Source: Nitrososphaerota archaeon (GTDB lineage: Archaea; Thermoproteota; Nitrososphaeria; Nitrososphaerales; Nitrosopumilaceae). Taken from it: DNA of 64,000 bases. The notes beneath the pieces are model-generated. The model had not been told where the DNA came from. It did not search any database and worked only from the letters and a program-made list of their open reading frames with translations. The translations under genes were made by a program, and so were the position numbers. Location: the NCBI GenBank assembly GCA_013288545.1, contig JABDBR010000001.1:1-64000 (forward strand), written 5' to 3'. Shown here in pieces: positions 6,071 to 11,283 of the stretch. Each line of letters opens with the position of its first letter. Position 1 is the stretch's first letter.

Positions 6071-8728
6071 CTATCCAGATGTACAGCCGCTATATCCACA
6101 TTCAATACACACACTACATCCTTCTGCAAATACCAAGTTGTTTTTGCATGTAGGACACAATCTTTCTTCCATTTGTTCTGGTGTGAGTGCTGGTGCTGGA
6201 GAAGATACTACACTATCTGGAATTTTTATCTGAAGTGCTCTTTCTATCTCAGTTTTTAGATATGCATTTGTAACATTCTTTGAGATATAGTCTGTCACAT
6301 AACTACTTGGAGTTACTTGGAAGTTCTTTTGAACATTATTTCCTGTCATGTGTAATACTTGTTCATGTCTTGAACCATCTCTGAATACAGTGATTCCTTT
6401 CAGACCAAGATCGTGTGCTAGTAGATATGCAGCTTTTACATCATCTGATGAGACATCATTTGGCATGTTGATTGTCTTGGCAATTGCATTACCTATCCAA
6501 CGCTGCCATACTCCCTGAGCCATCAGATGATCAGCCCAGTGAATATCCATTGCTGTAACAAATATCTTCTGCATCCATTCTGGAATCTCGGCTATTCCCT
6601 TTACAGAACCATAGTTATTTGCAATCTTTTCTAGAATTTGATCGTTGTATAGGCCATGTTCTTTGAGTACTGCTTCAAAGATTTTGTTAGTATAGAAAAA
6701 TCTACCCACTGTTACTCTTTTTTCAAAGACTAGAGCAAACATTGGCTCCATTCCGTTTGAGCAGTCAGCTATCATCGATAGTGTACCAGTAGGAGCAACG
6801 GTTGTTGTTAGAACATTTCTGATACCATGTTTCTGGATTTTGGCAATCAGAGCATCCCAATCATAAGTACGGGCACTCTTTGGTTTCTCATAATACCCAG
6901 CAACAGGAATTTTACCTTCTGGATATTCGGTTTTTGAACAGAGTGGGAATGGCCCTCGTGTCTTTGCAAGTGCAATGCTTTCTTCCATTGAATAGTACGT
7001 CAGTGCTTCAGCAAGCTTCTCTTGGAATTCATAGCCTTCTTGTGAGTTATATGGGATTCGTAATTTGAACAATAGATCAGCAACTCCCATTACTCCAAGT
7101 CCAATTCTTCTAGAATCTTTTGATGCCTTGTCAATTTCTGGAATTGGATATGTATTGACATCTATTACATTATCAAGGAATCTTGTTGTCTTTCGTATGG
7201 TTTCTTCATATCTTTGCCAGTCAAATTCGTATTGACCATCTGCTTTTCTCTTGACATAATTAGATAGATTGATCGAACCAAGGTTACATGATTCGTATGG
7301 ATAGAGACTTTGTTCTCCACATGGGTTTGTTGCTCGTATTGGCTCACCTCTTGCTTTTGCAAAAACATTGTATTTGTTTATGATATCAAAGAAGATCAAT
7401 CCTGGTTCACCACTCTTCCATGCAGAAAGTGCAATCAGATCAATCAAGTGATGTGCGTTTATTTCTCTTACAGGAGTTCTCTCTCGTGGACTTCGAAGAA
7501 CAAATTTTCCATCAGCTGAATTGACAAGTGCTTCCCAAAAGTCTTCCCAAACTCCTACACTTACATTAAAGTTTTCAAGAACACCTGGTTTTGTCTTTGC
7601 AGTAATGAATTTTTCAATATCTGGATGCCATGCTTCTATGATTCCCATGTTTGCACCCCTTCGTTTTCCTCCTTGTTTGACTACTTCAGTTACAGTGTTA
7701 ATGATGTTCATAAAAGAGACAGGACCTGAAGCTACTCCAGATGTTGATGCTACCATATCTCCCTCTTGCCTCAAATCTGAATAGTTGATACCAACTCCAC
7801 CTCCGGATTTGAATATCAATGCAGCATCAGAGGATGATTTCATTATCTTTTCCATATCGTCTTCCATTGCAAGAACAAAACATGCTGAAAGTTGGCCTAA
7901 TCGTGCACCAGCATTCATCATAGTTGGAGAATTTGGCAAAAAGTCTTGAGCAACCATCAAATCTGCAGCTTCTTTAATGCGTTCTGTGTATTGTTCAAAC
8001 TTGTTTGCAGCTAACATGGTCAATAATTCCCTAAAGCTGACTTTCATCTGGCCATGTTTTGCCAAGTCTATGTAATGATTTATCATTGATCTAAAATGAT
8101 ATTTATTAAGATAGTATTTTCCTATCTTGAATTTGTAGTTAAAGTCATCAAGTTTGTCTAGATATCTTGCGGCTTCCTCTACACTCTGGGTATTACCTCC
8201 TTCAATTTGAAATATTGAAGTATCCCTAATGACATCTGCAAGACCTACTAAGATAGCAACTCTTTCAAACATTTCGCCTGGGCTTTCAGTTATCTGACCT
8301 TTGTTATTTCTAAGCAGGTATCTTGATGCCAAGACTCTCAAGCAATTAAGATCAAATTTCTTTGCTACACTATCAAGAGATTTAGATTCTAAAACTTTCA
8401 TCTTTTCTTCTCGAACTCTTCGTCGTTCGTGTCGGTATAGGATGTATGCCTTGGCGATCTCACTGAGTCCTTCCTCAATTAGAGTAGACTCGACCATATC
8501 TTGCACATCTTCTACGCTTGGTGCTTCTGAACCAGAAAATCCCCGATTCACAAGTTTTGTAAGAACATGATTTGCTAGTTTATCTGCCAGACCATGATCT
8601 GATCTTCCGCAAGCAACAAGTGCTTTGTAGATTGCGCTTGAAATTTTATCTCTTTGGAAATCTGATACTCGACCATCGCGCTTCTTTACTTGCAAGATCG
8701 AATTTTCTATTTGTGAAAAATCTGTCAA
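6071..8728 (-). CDS. nrdJ: Adenosylcobalamin-dependent (class II) ribonucleotide reductase
   Basis: An 885-residue enzyme making deoxyribonucleotides with a B12-generated radical, so no oxygen or iron subunit is needed. An ATP-cone (VKKRDGRVSDF, about 14-105) gives allosteric control. The catalytic domain shows LSACFVL (first redox Cys), FKSGGGVGINYSDLR (cofactor region), NPCGEQ (active-site Asn, Cys, Glu) and SCNLGSINLSNY. The C-terminus has two CxxC pairs and a final GYSGCTSG that likely re-reduces the active site. The start is TTG at 8728, chosen because GGGGAG lies just upstream. It follows the HTH/NrdD-like gene across 229 bases on the same strand. Confidence 0.96.
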   Translation of the reverse strand: MTDFSQIENSILQVKKRDGRVSDFQRDKISSAIYKALVACGRSDHGLADKLANHVLTKLVNRGFSGSEAPSVEDVQDMVESTLIEEGLSEIAKAYILYRHERRRVREEKMKVLESKSLDSVAKKFDLNCLRVLASRYLLRNNKGQITESPGEMFERVAILVGLADVIRDTSIFQIEGGNTQSVEEAARYLDKLDDFNYKFKIGKYYLNKYHFRSMINHYIDLAKHGQMKVSFRELLTMLAANKFEQYTERIKEAADLMVAQDFLPNSPTMMNAGARLGQLSACFVLAMEDDMEKIMKSSSDAALIFKSGGGVGINYSDLRQEGDMVASTSGVASGPVSFMNIINTVTEVVKQGGKRRGANMGIIEAWHPDIEKFITAKTKPGVLENFNVSVGVWEDFWEALVNSADGKFVLRSPRERTPVREINAHHLIDLIALSAWKSGEPGLIFFDIINKYNVFAKARGEPIRATNPCGEQSLYPYESCNLGSINLSNYVKRKADGQYEFDWQRYEETIRKTTRFLDNVIDVNTYPIPEIDKASKDSRRIGLGVMGVADLLFKLRIPYNSQEGYEFQEKLAEALTYYSMEESIALAKTRGPFPLCSKTEYPEGKIPVAGYYEKPKSARTYDWDALIAKIQKHGIRNVLTTTVAPTGTLSMIADCSNGMEPMFALVFEKRVTVGRFFYTNKIFEAVLKEHGLYNDQILEKIANNYGSVKGIAEIPEWMQKIFVTAMDIHWADHLMAQGVWQRWIGNAIAKTINMPNDVSSDDVKAAYLLAHDLGLKGITVFRDGSRHEQVLHMTGNNVQKNFQVTPSSYVTDYISKNVTNAYLKTEIERALQIKIPDSVVSSPAPALTPEQMEERLCPTCKNNLVFAEGCSVCIECGYSGCTSG

Positions 8729-8957
8729 CTTACTCCCCTCAACCCTAACAAATGGGAGTTAAATAAACACTGCGGCAAAAAATAATTTTCTAAAGCTAAA
8801 CTTTGGATCAATTTTGTTGACACCGGTACGATTTCCATGGTATTAGATCATCTCACGGCAAAATAAATTTTAAGGAATTCATTAAAAATTTAATATAAAT
8901 TCCAGATTAATTCAAAATTTTTGTTCACTAAACTATCAGCCTGTCGCGGGTTGAAAA
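8729..8957 (-). promoter_or_regulatory. Leader/promoter region of nrdJ
   Basis: This 229-base AT-rich gap separates nrdJ from the HTH-ATP-cone protein upstream and is one of the longest non-coding stretches here. Read on the minus strand, a TATA-like TTTATTTAA lies about 30 bases before the TTG start, followed by GGGGAG as a ribosome binding site. Two similar blocks reading CGGCAAAA(A)ATAA-TTTT on the plus strand (8773-8790 and 8856-8871) and an inverted repeat at 8874-8903 are candidate operator sites. No B12 riboswitch was recognised. Confidence 0.5.
8874..8903. repeat. Imperfect inverted repeat between nrdD-like gene and nrdJ
   Basis: GGAATTCATTAAA at 8874-8886 faces TTTAATATAAATTCC at 8889-8903; the outer GGAATT/AATTCC and inner ATTAAA/TTTAAT pair, with a two-base bulge. 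It lies 55 bases after the stop of the upstream gene and about 145 bases before nrdJ. It could be an operator or an RNA hairpin. AT richness makes chance a real alternative. Confidence 0.35.
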
Positions 8958-11054
8958 TTATGCTAGTATGTAAGGTGACTTGCACACTGAACACTTTTCA
9001 GCGATCTTTTCTTCCTTGAGGCCACAGTTACTACATATAGGCACCTTTTTGACAGGTCTGAAGGATCCTAATAACTCGCCTGCTTTCTCTAATGCTTTCT
9101 TTATTCCTGAAGAATCCATTGCGTCTGGGATCTTTAACTGAACTAATAACCCACCGTTGAGTATTTTTGAAAAATAGTTCGATTCTACGATCTTTTCATT
9201 TTTGGGATTCATCTCTACTATCTCAGAGGCGTCAAGAACAATCCCTTCTGAATATGACTCTCCCATTGCGTGATTATTAATTGACATCTTACCATATTTT
9301 TCACCATCAAGTGATGAGAAGCGACTTGCAGCGTCACTCTCAGTCATGGTCACAATAACATTATCTCCCATCTCTTTTCCTTTCTTTGTAGCCACTTCCA
9401 TGGCAGTGTTTATCACTTTAGCCAAGATTTCGTGTCCAGCCTTGTTATTTTCATATCCTAGAATACCATAAACTGCCTCCTTAAGTCCGATCAAATTAAC
9501 AACCAAAGTTACCGATCCCTTTTGCATATACTGAGTATTATTCGCAAGGATTGGGTTAAGACCGCGTCTAGTTAGATCAGATATTTCCTTCTTTCTAAGA
9601 GACATAGCTGCCAGTGCTGGCTTCATCAATAGTGCAAGTCTTGCTCTGAAATAAGTTTCATCTTTGTTTGATTCAAAAGCCAGTCTTGGCATATTAATCG
9701 ATAGAGACTCTAAATTGATTGAAGTCGTTCCAACATTCTTTGTATCTCCTCGTGCCAATCCCTTGTTAGATACTAATCCTTTAGCAAACATAATGTGTCC
9801 GCCTAATGCAATTACATCTGCTAAAATTTCCGAATAGTCACTTAGTTTGGCTTTTTCATAATCAATTACTAGTCCTATAGATGGAAGCGGTGTTGACTTA
9901 ACATATTTTTTGTAGGCTTGGAGAATAGTTCCAACTATCTTTGGTTCTGTCCCAATGGAAATTCTAAATGAAGCAAGTGTTCCATTCTTTCCATACTTGG
10001 GTCCTGTAGATATTTTTGCAAAACAACTTGCAAGTTTTTCTTCAATTTCAGGCAAATTCTTGGAATATTTTTGTAATACAGTAGTCAATCCATCCATAAC
10101 TACTTCTTGTGATGCTTCTTTTATGAGAAGGCATGTTAGTAGAGATAAAGAGGTAAAAAGATCGTCTAATGAACTTGGCGATGATGTTCTTGTTACACCC
10201 AAGAATTTCCCTCTCAAGTCAACGCCTTCTTCAATAAGTTCCTTAATGTTCACAAATATTGTATCTGGAAGAAGTGACCACAATCCAGCATTTGTTATGT
10301 GAAGATCTCCTGAGAGATGAGAATCAGCGACATCTTTAGGCAGGGTGTTTAAGACAAGATATTCTCCAAATACATTCTGTCCTGTTTTAAATAGCAAACC
10401 CTCAACTCCGTTATGGATACCATCTACATTGGTTAGCATCTCATGAATATCATAACCAGGTAACCCAAATCTTGCCAGTTTGTGCCTATAGTCTTCATGG
10501 CCTTGTTCTAAGAGGACAGAATTGACCATTTCACGTATAAGTGAGGATGTAAGATAAGATGTCTGAAATTTGTATATTCTATTCTCCACTTCCTCAGTTA
10601 TTTTTTGAGCAAGTTCAAGTGGAAGGCTACCTTCTCTAACCAATGATTGAATAATCTTATGAGAATTGAATTCCTCTATTGACTCATGTGAGGTTCTGAC
10701 ATACATTTTACCGCTTTCAATGATAGATCGCTCTTCGATCTGTCTTGCAAGACTTAGTACTAGTTTTCCCAAGTTAGTAATAGTATATCTCCTTTCAGAC
10801 TTGTTTAAGGCTACAAGAGATTGTCTTAGCAATTTTCTCAAGTGATATGCAAACTTACCACTCTCCTTTTTTGATTTGAAACCGGCAAGAGATTTTAATT
10901 CAGAATAGGTAAGAGGGCCCTTTGAATTCAGGATACGTAAAATATCAATTCTGTTCGGACTTGCCATAACAGAGAAGATCATTCTTACACGTTTTGATGC
11001 TGATTGTAATATTCCACCACGTTTTGGATCGCCAAAGTCCTCACTTAGTTCCAT
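8958..11054 (-). CDS. Winged-helix / ATP-cone / degenerate NrdD-like protein, candidate RNR regulator
   Basis: The 698 residues divide into three parts. About 20-110 is an ArsR-like winged helix (ASPNRIDILRIL, then HLRKLLRQSLV). About 115-205 is an ATP-cone ending ARFGLPGYDI. About 205-670 resembles the class III reductase NrdD (TTSINLESLSINMPRL, VTLVVNLIGLKEAVYG). The C-terminus is a zinc ribbon with Cys 674, 677, 688 and 691, and the protein stops seven residues later, so the glycyl-radical loop normally following it is absent. No Cys occurs in the finger-loop region before the NMPRL strand either. This suggests a non-catalytic nucleotide sensor joined to a DNA-binding domain. It lies directly upstream of nrdJ. 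Confidence 0.8.
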   Translation of the reverse strand: MELSEDFGDPKRGGILQSASKRVRMIFSVMASPNRIDILRILNSKGPLTYSELKSLAGFKSKKESGKFAYHLRKLLRQSLVALNKSERRYTITNLGKLVLSLARQIEERSIIESGKMYVRTSHESIEEFNSHKIIQSLVREGSLPLELAQKITEEVENRIYKFQTSYLTSSLIREMVNSVLLEQGHEDYRHKLARFGLPGYDIHEMLTNVDGIHNGVEGLLFKTGQNVFGEYLVLNTLPKDVADSHLSGDLHITNAGLWSLLPDTIFVNIKELIEEGVDLRGKFLGVTRTSSPSSLDDLFTSLSLLTCLLIKEASQEVVMDGLTTVLQKYSKNLPEIEEKLASCFAKISTGPKYGKNGTLASFRISIGTEPKIVGTILQAYKKYVKSTPLPSIGLVIDYEKAKLSDYSEILADVIALGGHIMFAKGLVSNKGLARGDTKNVGTTSINLESLSINMPRLAFESNKDETYFRARLALLMKPALAAMSLRKKEISDLTRRGLNPILANNTQYMQKGSVTLVVNLIGLKEAVYGILGYENNKAGHEILAKVINTAMEVATKKGKEMGDNVIVTMTESDAASRFSSLDGEKYGKMSINNHAMGESYSEGIVLDASEIVEMNPKNEKIVESNYFSKILNGGLLVQLKIPDAMDSSGIKKALEKAGELLGSFRPVKKVPICSNCGLKEEKIAEKCSVCKSPYILA

Positions 11055-11121: not shown

Positions 11122-11283
11122 TCAGTTTTTCTGTACATCCACACTAAATTCGGATGGAGATAATGTCTGTCCACAAGATGGACATTTACTGTTATATGGT
11201 CGCATTACATCTTTTATTGATTTTAACATACGCATATTTGCAATTTTAGCTCCACATCTTCCGCAAACAACATCGACAGACAT
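11122..11283 (-). CDS. Small zinc-ribbon protein (53 aa)
   Basis: A 53-codon ORF with ATG at 11283 and stop TGA at 11122. It encodes MSVDVVCGRCGAKIA, a basic middle with MLKSIKDVMRPY, then CPSCGQTLSP. The two CxxC pairs make a classic rubredoxin-like zinc ribbon. It fills most of the gap between the NrdD-like gene (67 bases downstream) and the OB-fold gene (73 bases upstream) on the same strand. Its function is unknown; nucleic acid or protein binding is typical of such ribbons. Confidence 0.75.
   Translation of the reverse strand: MSVDVVCGRCGAKIANMRMLKSIKDVMRPYNSKCPSCGQTLSPSEFSVDVQKN

Follow-up and report, generated by a model that had tools for sequence, protein, structure and literature searches.

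A predicted NrdD-like pseudoenzyme with a winged helix and an ATP-cone: a proposed transcription regulator of ribonucleotide reductase genes in Nitrososphaerota

Within the 64,000-nucleotide stretch of archaeal DNA that we analysed (the window), a gene just upstream of a ribonucleotide reductase (RNR) gene encodes a protein in which an ArsR-like winged helix is joined to an ATP-cone and a dead relative of the class III anaerobic reductase NrdD, and we consider it, with a probability of about 0.78, to be a transcription regulator of that RNR gene. There is strong support for a regulatory role linked to RNR genes, namely the adjacency of the two genes throughout the order, the persistence of the regulator through swaps of the neighboring reductase, and the conservation of the winged helix above all other parts of the protein.

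The open reading frame, which runs from an ATG at 11054 to a stop at 8958, is a real gene and not a chance frame: 39 of 41 close relatives carry it. The initial annotation had described a fusion of winged helix, ATP-cone and NrdD-like barrel, and all three gave Pfam matches above the respective cut-offs: residues 25-99 matched DUF7347 (E 2.3e-10, 41 against a cut-off of 27.6) and HTH_20 (E 7.5e-8, 32.7 against 27), residues 116-188 matched the ATP-cone PF03477 (E 9.7e-10, 39.3 against 25.8), and residues 441-692 matched NRDD PF13597 (E 9.1e-24, 84.5 bits against 26.2). Its placement of the gene upstream of nrdJ was equally correct, as nrdJ (8728-6071) lies on the same strand and starts 229 bp beyond the regulator gene. 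The top matches of the protein in the PDB were class III reductases, all of them weak, and AlphaFold2 gave a poor model from the window protein and 22 congeneric homologs (pLDDT 42). Just 5′ of the regulator gene there is also an ORF on the same strand (11122-11283) for a 53-aa zinc-ribbon protein, which is apparently kept in several genera.

Table 1. Positions in the window of the proposed regulator gene, its domains and the adjacent nrdJ region
Feature	Position	Strand	Length or basis
Winged-helix/ATP-cone/pseudo-NrdD gene, proposed RNR regulator	8958..11054	-	698 aa
Winged helix, ArsR-like, DUF7347/HTH_20, residues 21-108	10731..10994	-	Pfam and conservation in 65 homologs
ATP-cone, residues 115-198	10461..10712	-	Pfam and alignments
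NrdD-like barrel, residues 205-666, without catalytic residues	9057..10442	-	Pfam and alignments
Finger-loop region, degenerate and without Cys, residues 424-450, AKGLVSNKGLARGDTKNVGTTSINLES	9705..9785	-	Alignments
Zinc ribbon C674/C677/C688/C691, then 7 residues to the C-terminus	8961..9035	-	Alignments
nrdJ, class II (B12-dependent) RNR with its own ATP-cone; genuine reductase, proposed target	6071..8728	-	
Conserved element 5′ of nrdJ, ATaGtAncG[G/T]TGTnAAnnnnnTTGAncc, core 8808-8824	8803..8838	-	Candidate operator, Nitrosopumilaceae-type genomes only
TATA-like element GTTTATTTAA, 3′ of the conserved element and about 31-40 bp ahead of the nrdJ start	8759..8768	-	Sequence; aligned across genera

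The loss of catalysis is firmly supported by comparison with genuine NrdDs. We aligned 33 members of the family with 11 genuine enzymes (10 from genomes of the phylum and that of E. coli), in which a first-strand Cys (C175 in E. coli), a finger-loop Cys (C384, mostly within CCR or GCR) and the glycine of an RxxGY motif (G681) are found. In this alignment the window protein has no finger-loop Cys, no first-strand Cys and no glycyl-radical loop; exactly seven residues follow Cys691, and across the 65 full-length homologs from the order between 6 and 15 residues follow the last zinc Cys. The missing finger-loop Cys and the early end of the protein had both been claimed in the initial annotation, which had named such an alignment as a possible refutation of its own reading; neither a Cys nor a radical Gly was found at the catalytic positions. 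Among the 65 homologs the only columns with Cys in at least 30% of sequences are those of the four zinc ligands (C674, C677, C688 and C691, a predicted zinc ribbon present in 64 of the 65), none has RxxGY near its C-terminus, and the two other cysteines of the window protein, C308 and C344, are not conserved. A profile-profile comparison (hhalign) of the order-level homologs with the 11 genuine NrdDs gave an alignment over residues 115-698 (probability 100, E 9.6e-53) that stops at the zinc ribbon, and against the NCBI equivalog model for NrdD, TIGR02487, the window protein scored 77.9 bits, below the cut-off of 326.35. The initial annotation had noted that no activase gene is adjacent; at the level of genomes, TIGR02495 (NrdG2), the sole activase model run, found no NrdG above its cut-off in the ammonia oxidizers tested, which included three single-contig genomes (G006, G123 and G043), and its best score in genome G000 was 49.6 bits against a cut-off of 131. 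Every genome in which this model exceeded its cut-off also has a genuine NrdD. Since the catalytic Cys, the radical glycine loop and NrdG are all absent, the protein is, as judged from its sequence, a pseudoenzyme and not a functional NrdD.

How old is this loss? Of 299 genomes of the phylum, 215 have some match to the family. The same winged-helix/cone/NrdD architecture, in about 600-780 aa, is encoded at 20 loci outside the order, spread over many other families, and the genomes concerned usually also hold a separate genuine NrdD. The first-strand Cys is missing in all 20. Three of them (L094, L096, L110) have a Cys at the finger-loop position and two (L094, L105) a glycine at the radical position, and none has the complete catalytic set. 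Because relatives in other lineages also lack the catalytic residues, the loss is older than the aerobic ammonia oxidizers, and a recent loss of activity within that group is ruled out. Genuine NrdDs form one group in an unrooted tree (100/100), with which a single loss of catalysis is compatible. The initial annotation had reasoned that an oxygen-sensitive enzyme would make little sense in an aerobic organism, an argument that fails because homologs are dead also where a genuine NrdD and NrdG exist: the dead-NrdD architecture is phylum-wide and not a specific adaptation of aerobic ammonia oxidizers. In one family, three members (L099, L101, L111) are further shortened and the zinc ribbon is gone from their C-termini. 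Some genuine NrdDs (L126-L128 and L140, in G071:C35, G213:C50, G066:C9 and G249:C31) occupy frames of 909-1737 aa and possibly contain inteins.

When the architecture was sought beside RNR genes in relatives, all 66 order-level genomes whose flanks were examined, related genomes that are not independent trials, had a class II RNR gene directly 3′ of it and in the same orientation, usually at a distance of 90-400 bp. The reductase in question is not always of the same type. It may be a protein of about 885 aa with a cone, one of 735-790 aa with TSCPD and no cone (L188, L195, L196, L197, L199), one of about 1050 aa with Ribonuc_red_2_N (L187, L193) or one of 715 aa with a cone (L189). The swapped subtypes are 25-37% identical, whereas identity between their regulators, over the winged helix and the cone, is 58-87%. 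For instance, the regulators of L192 and L188 are 87% identical over these domains and their NrdJs 32%, and for L192 and L193 the corresponding values are 82% and 30%. Such divergent NrdJs beside near-constant regulators imply that the enzyme gene was replaced next to the regulator more than once, and a gene that always lies just upstream of a real RNR gene, even after a swap, is probably an RNR switch. One near-complete order-level genome (G030, locus L198) lacks the regulator yet has an RNR, a short NrdJ (707 aa) that bears a cone. The NrdJ that adjoins the regulator at L194 (765-4211) carries a LAGLIDADG intein within its barrel, and in Ca. Nitrosotalea sp. TS (L060) the regulator and nrdJ are each split over two frames, probably through sequencing errors. 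Outside the order, the neighbors are a genuine nrdD (L096, L110, L113), dCTP deaminase (L108, L109) or aspartate carbamoyltransferase genes; pyrB is often the neighbor in these lineages, frequently in convergent orientation, and the linkage is weak.

The domains of the protein have not been conserved equally. Mean pairwise identity among the 65 homologs is 0.90 for the winged helix, 0.81 for the cone and 0.44-0.60 for the barrel, which is the reverse of the pattern expected of an enzyme and is regulator-like. The cone has nonetheless been altered at its nucleotide-lid motif, KR(D/N)G, which in genuine NrdD cones is intact and in essentially all 65 homologs has become VR[TS][ST] (VRTS-type); E127 and F129-N130 are kept. 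Without KR(D/N)G, an NrdR-like dATP/ATP switch cannot simply be assumed, and to judge by these residues the cone may have a ligand other than dATP/ATP. The initial description of the protein as a reductase turned into a nucleotide-sensing regulator is partly supported: the loss of catalysis and the linkage to RNR hold, whereas the ligand may differ from the dATP/ATP that it had suggested for a binding test.

Three other explanations have to be weighed against a transcription regulator of RNR. That the protein is still an active class III reductase with unusual catalysis might be entertained because Thermotoga maritima NrdD is active although its crystal structure shows a Cys that is not pre-positioned (PMC4493059). 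However, that enzyme retains its SCCR motif and radical glycine, whereas the window protein has no conserved Cys beyond the zinc ribbon, no residues at the glycine site and no NrdG above the cut-off; with the conserved catalytic residues absent, the proposal is already contradicted by the sequence, and we regard it as exceedingly improbable. A second proposal accepts the barrel as dead and has it act at the protein level, as a pseudo-subunit that tunes activity or assembly, either by joining the genuine reductase in a complex or by titrating nucleotides, the winged helix being a protein-protein module. RNR barrels dimerize and inactive paralogs can regulate active enzymes, and the invariable adjacency to an RNR gene within the order also agrees with this proposal. 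We nevertheless think it unlikely: the partner RNR has been swapped for others 25-37% identical to it while the regulator barely changed, which suits control of a promoter better than a specific protein interface, the barrel has changed most rapidly and the DNA-binding-type domain least, and the partners, as class II enzymes, are only distantly related to class III barrels.

A third alternative keeps the transcription factor and widens its remit, so that the main targets would lie elsewhere, in pyrimidine or general nucleotide metabolism, and RNR would be one among several. The pyrB/pyrI and dCTP deaminase neighbors outside the order are in keeping with this, as is a cone that lacks the canonical motif. 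Within the order, however, the neighbor is always an RNR gene, and this across several RNR subtypes; we therefore hold the wider remit to be doubtful, if a less remote prospect than the pseudo-subunit.

If the protein is instead a dedicated regulator of RNR transcription, how might it work? The barrel and cone would dimerize or oligomerize in the manner of RNRs, and nucleotides bound by the cone or the barrel would change the oligomeric state. That change would in turn alter the affinity of the winged helices, which presumably bind DNA, for the adjacent RNR promoter, and RNR expression would thereby be matched to nucleotide supply. Both the identity of the sensed nucleotide and the direction of control (repression or activation) are matters that we infer.

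A candidate operator is present upstream of nrdJ. The element ATaGtAncG(G/T)TGTnAAnnnnnTTGAncc occurs at about -100 to -73 of nrdJ in 18 of 18 upstream regions from several genera, and the best common 20-mer of these regions had a mean of 15.2 matches relative to 12.6 or fewer in shuffled sequences, a comparison that, since the genomes are related, can serve as a guide but not as a test. L023, L026 and L028 did not show the element despite their nearly identical winged helices, and it is therefore a candidate for Nitrosopumilaceae-type genomes only. Searched for in 11 genomes, a loose pattern of the motif was no commoner genome-wide than a reversed control, so we claim no wider regulon. If the element is the operator of the proposed regulator, its position about 40 bp upstream of the TATA-like element fits activation as well as repression.

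The nearest comparison in terms of role is NrdR, the bacterial RNR repressor (TIGR00244), which likewise joins an ATP-cone to a DNA-binding module and serves RNR genes of any class; the nucleotide-dependent control of RNR transcription that NrdR exerts is only proposed for the window protein. NrdR has about 150 aa and begins with a zinc ribbon, whereas the window protein has an ArsR-like winged helix, a cone with an altered motif and a 490-aa dead reductase. It did not match TIGR00244 and does not have the order of zinc ribbon followed by ATP-cone, and no match to the consensus of the NrdR box within 3 mismatches was found in the 64-kb window. NrdR has been described as rare in archaea (PMC9110341), and we found it above the cut-off in 7 of 151 genomes of the phylum, all of one family and none of them an ammonia oxidizer. 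Stand-alone ORFs of about 95-115 aa that match solely the ATP-cone part of NrdR occur in several families (G081, G055, G106, G164, G194 and others). The initial annotation's phrase, a counterpart of NrdR in logic and not in homology as a whole, is close to our own best reading, which is NrdR-like in role, not in descent.

With NrdD itself the window protein shares a homologous barrel, the position of the cone and the C-terminal zinc ribbon, and differs from it in lacking the finger-loop and first-strand Cys, the glycyl-radical loop and an activase, and in its added winged helix. A parallel is offered by transcription factors that derive from enzymes (BirA, the ROK repressors and Gal80 among them), as in each an enzyme fold, active or dead, is reused as the sensor of a regulator. 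To our knowledge there is no case of a transcription factor derived from an RNR. Our literature search, which covered papers available without subscription, found neither an RNR-derived regulator nor a description of this type of protein, and a term search of two papers on RNR phylogeny (PMC9531940, PMC9669993) found no mention of this protein.

More tentatively, and at less than even odds, the family as a whole could be a phylum-wide, as yet undescribed class of archaeal RNR regulators with an entire dead reductase as sensor, in which the old allosteric and substrate sites of the barrel, and not a canonical ATP-cone, would gauge the nucleotide pool and control RNR transcription whatever the class of RNR. 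Database labels of "anaerobic reductase" on such proteins stand to be corrected, as they mislead inferences about anaerobic growth. If our main reading is true, the protein would clearly exemplify the conversion of an RNR into a transcription regulator. It offers a specific and testable RNR regulator in an archaeal group that ranks among the most abundant, and it probably supplies the switch that was missing from the DNA-precursor synthesis of these organisms.
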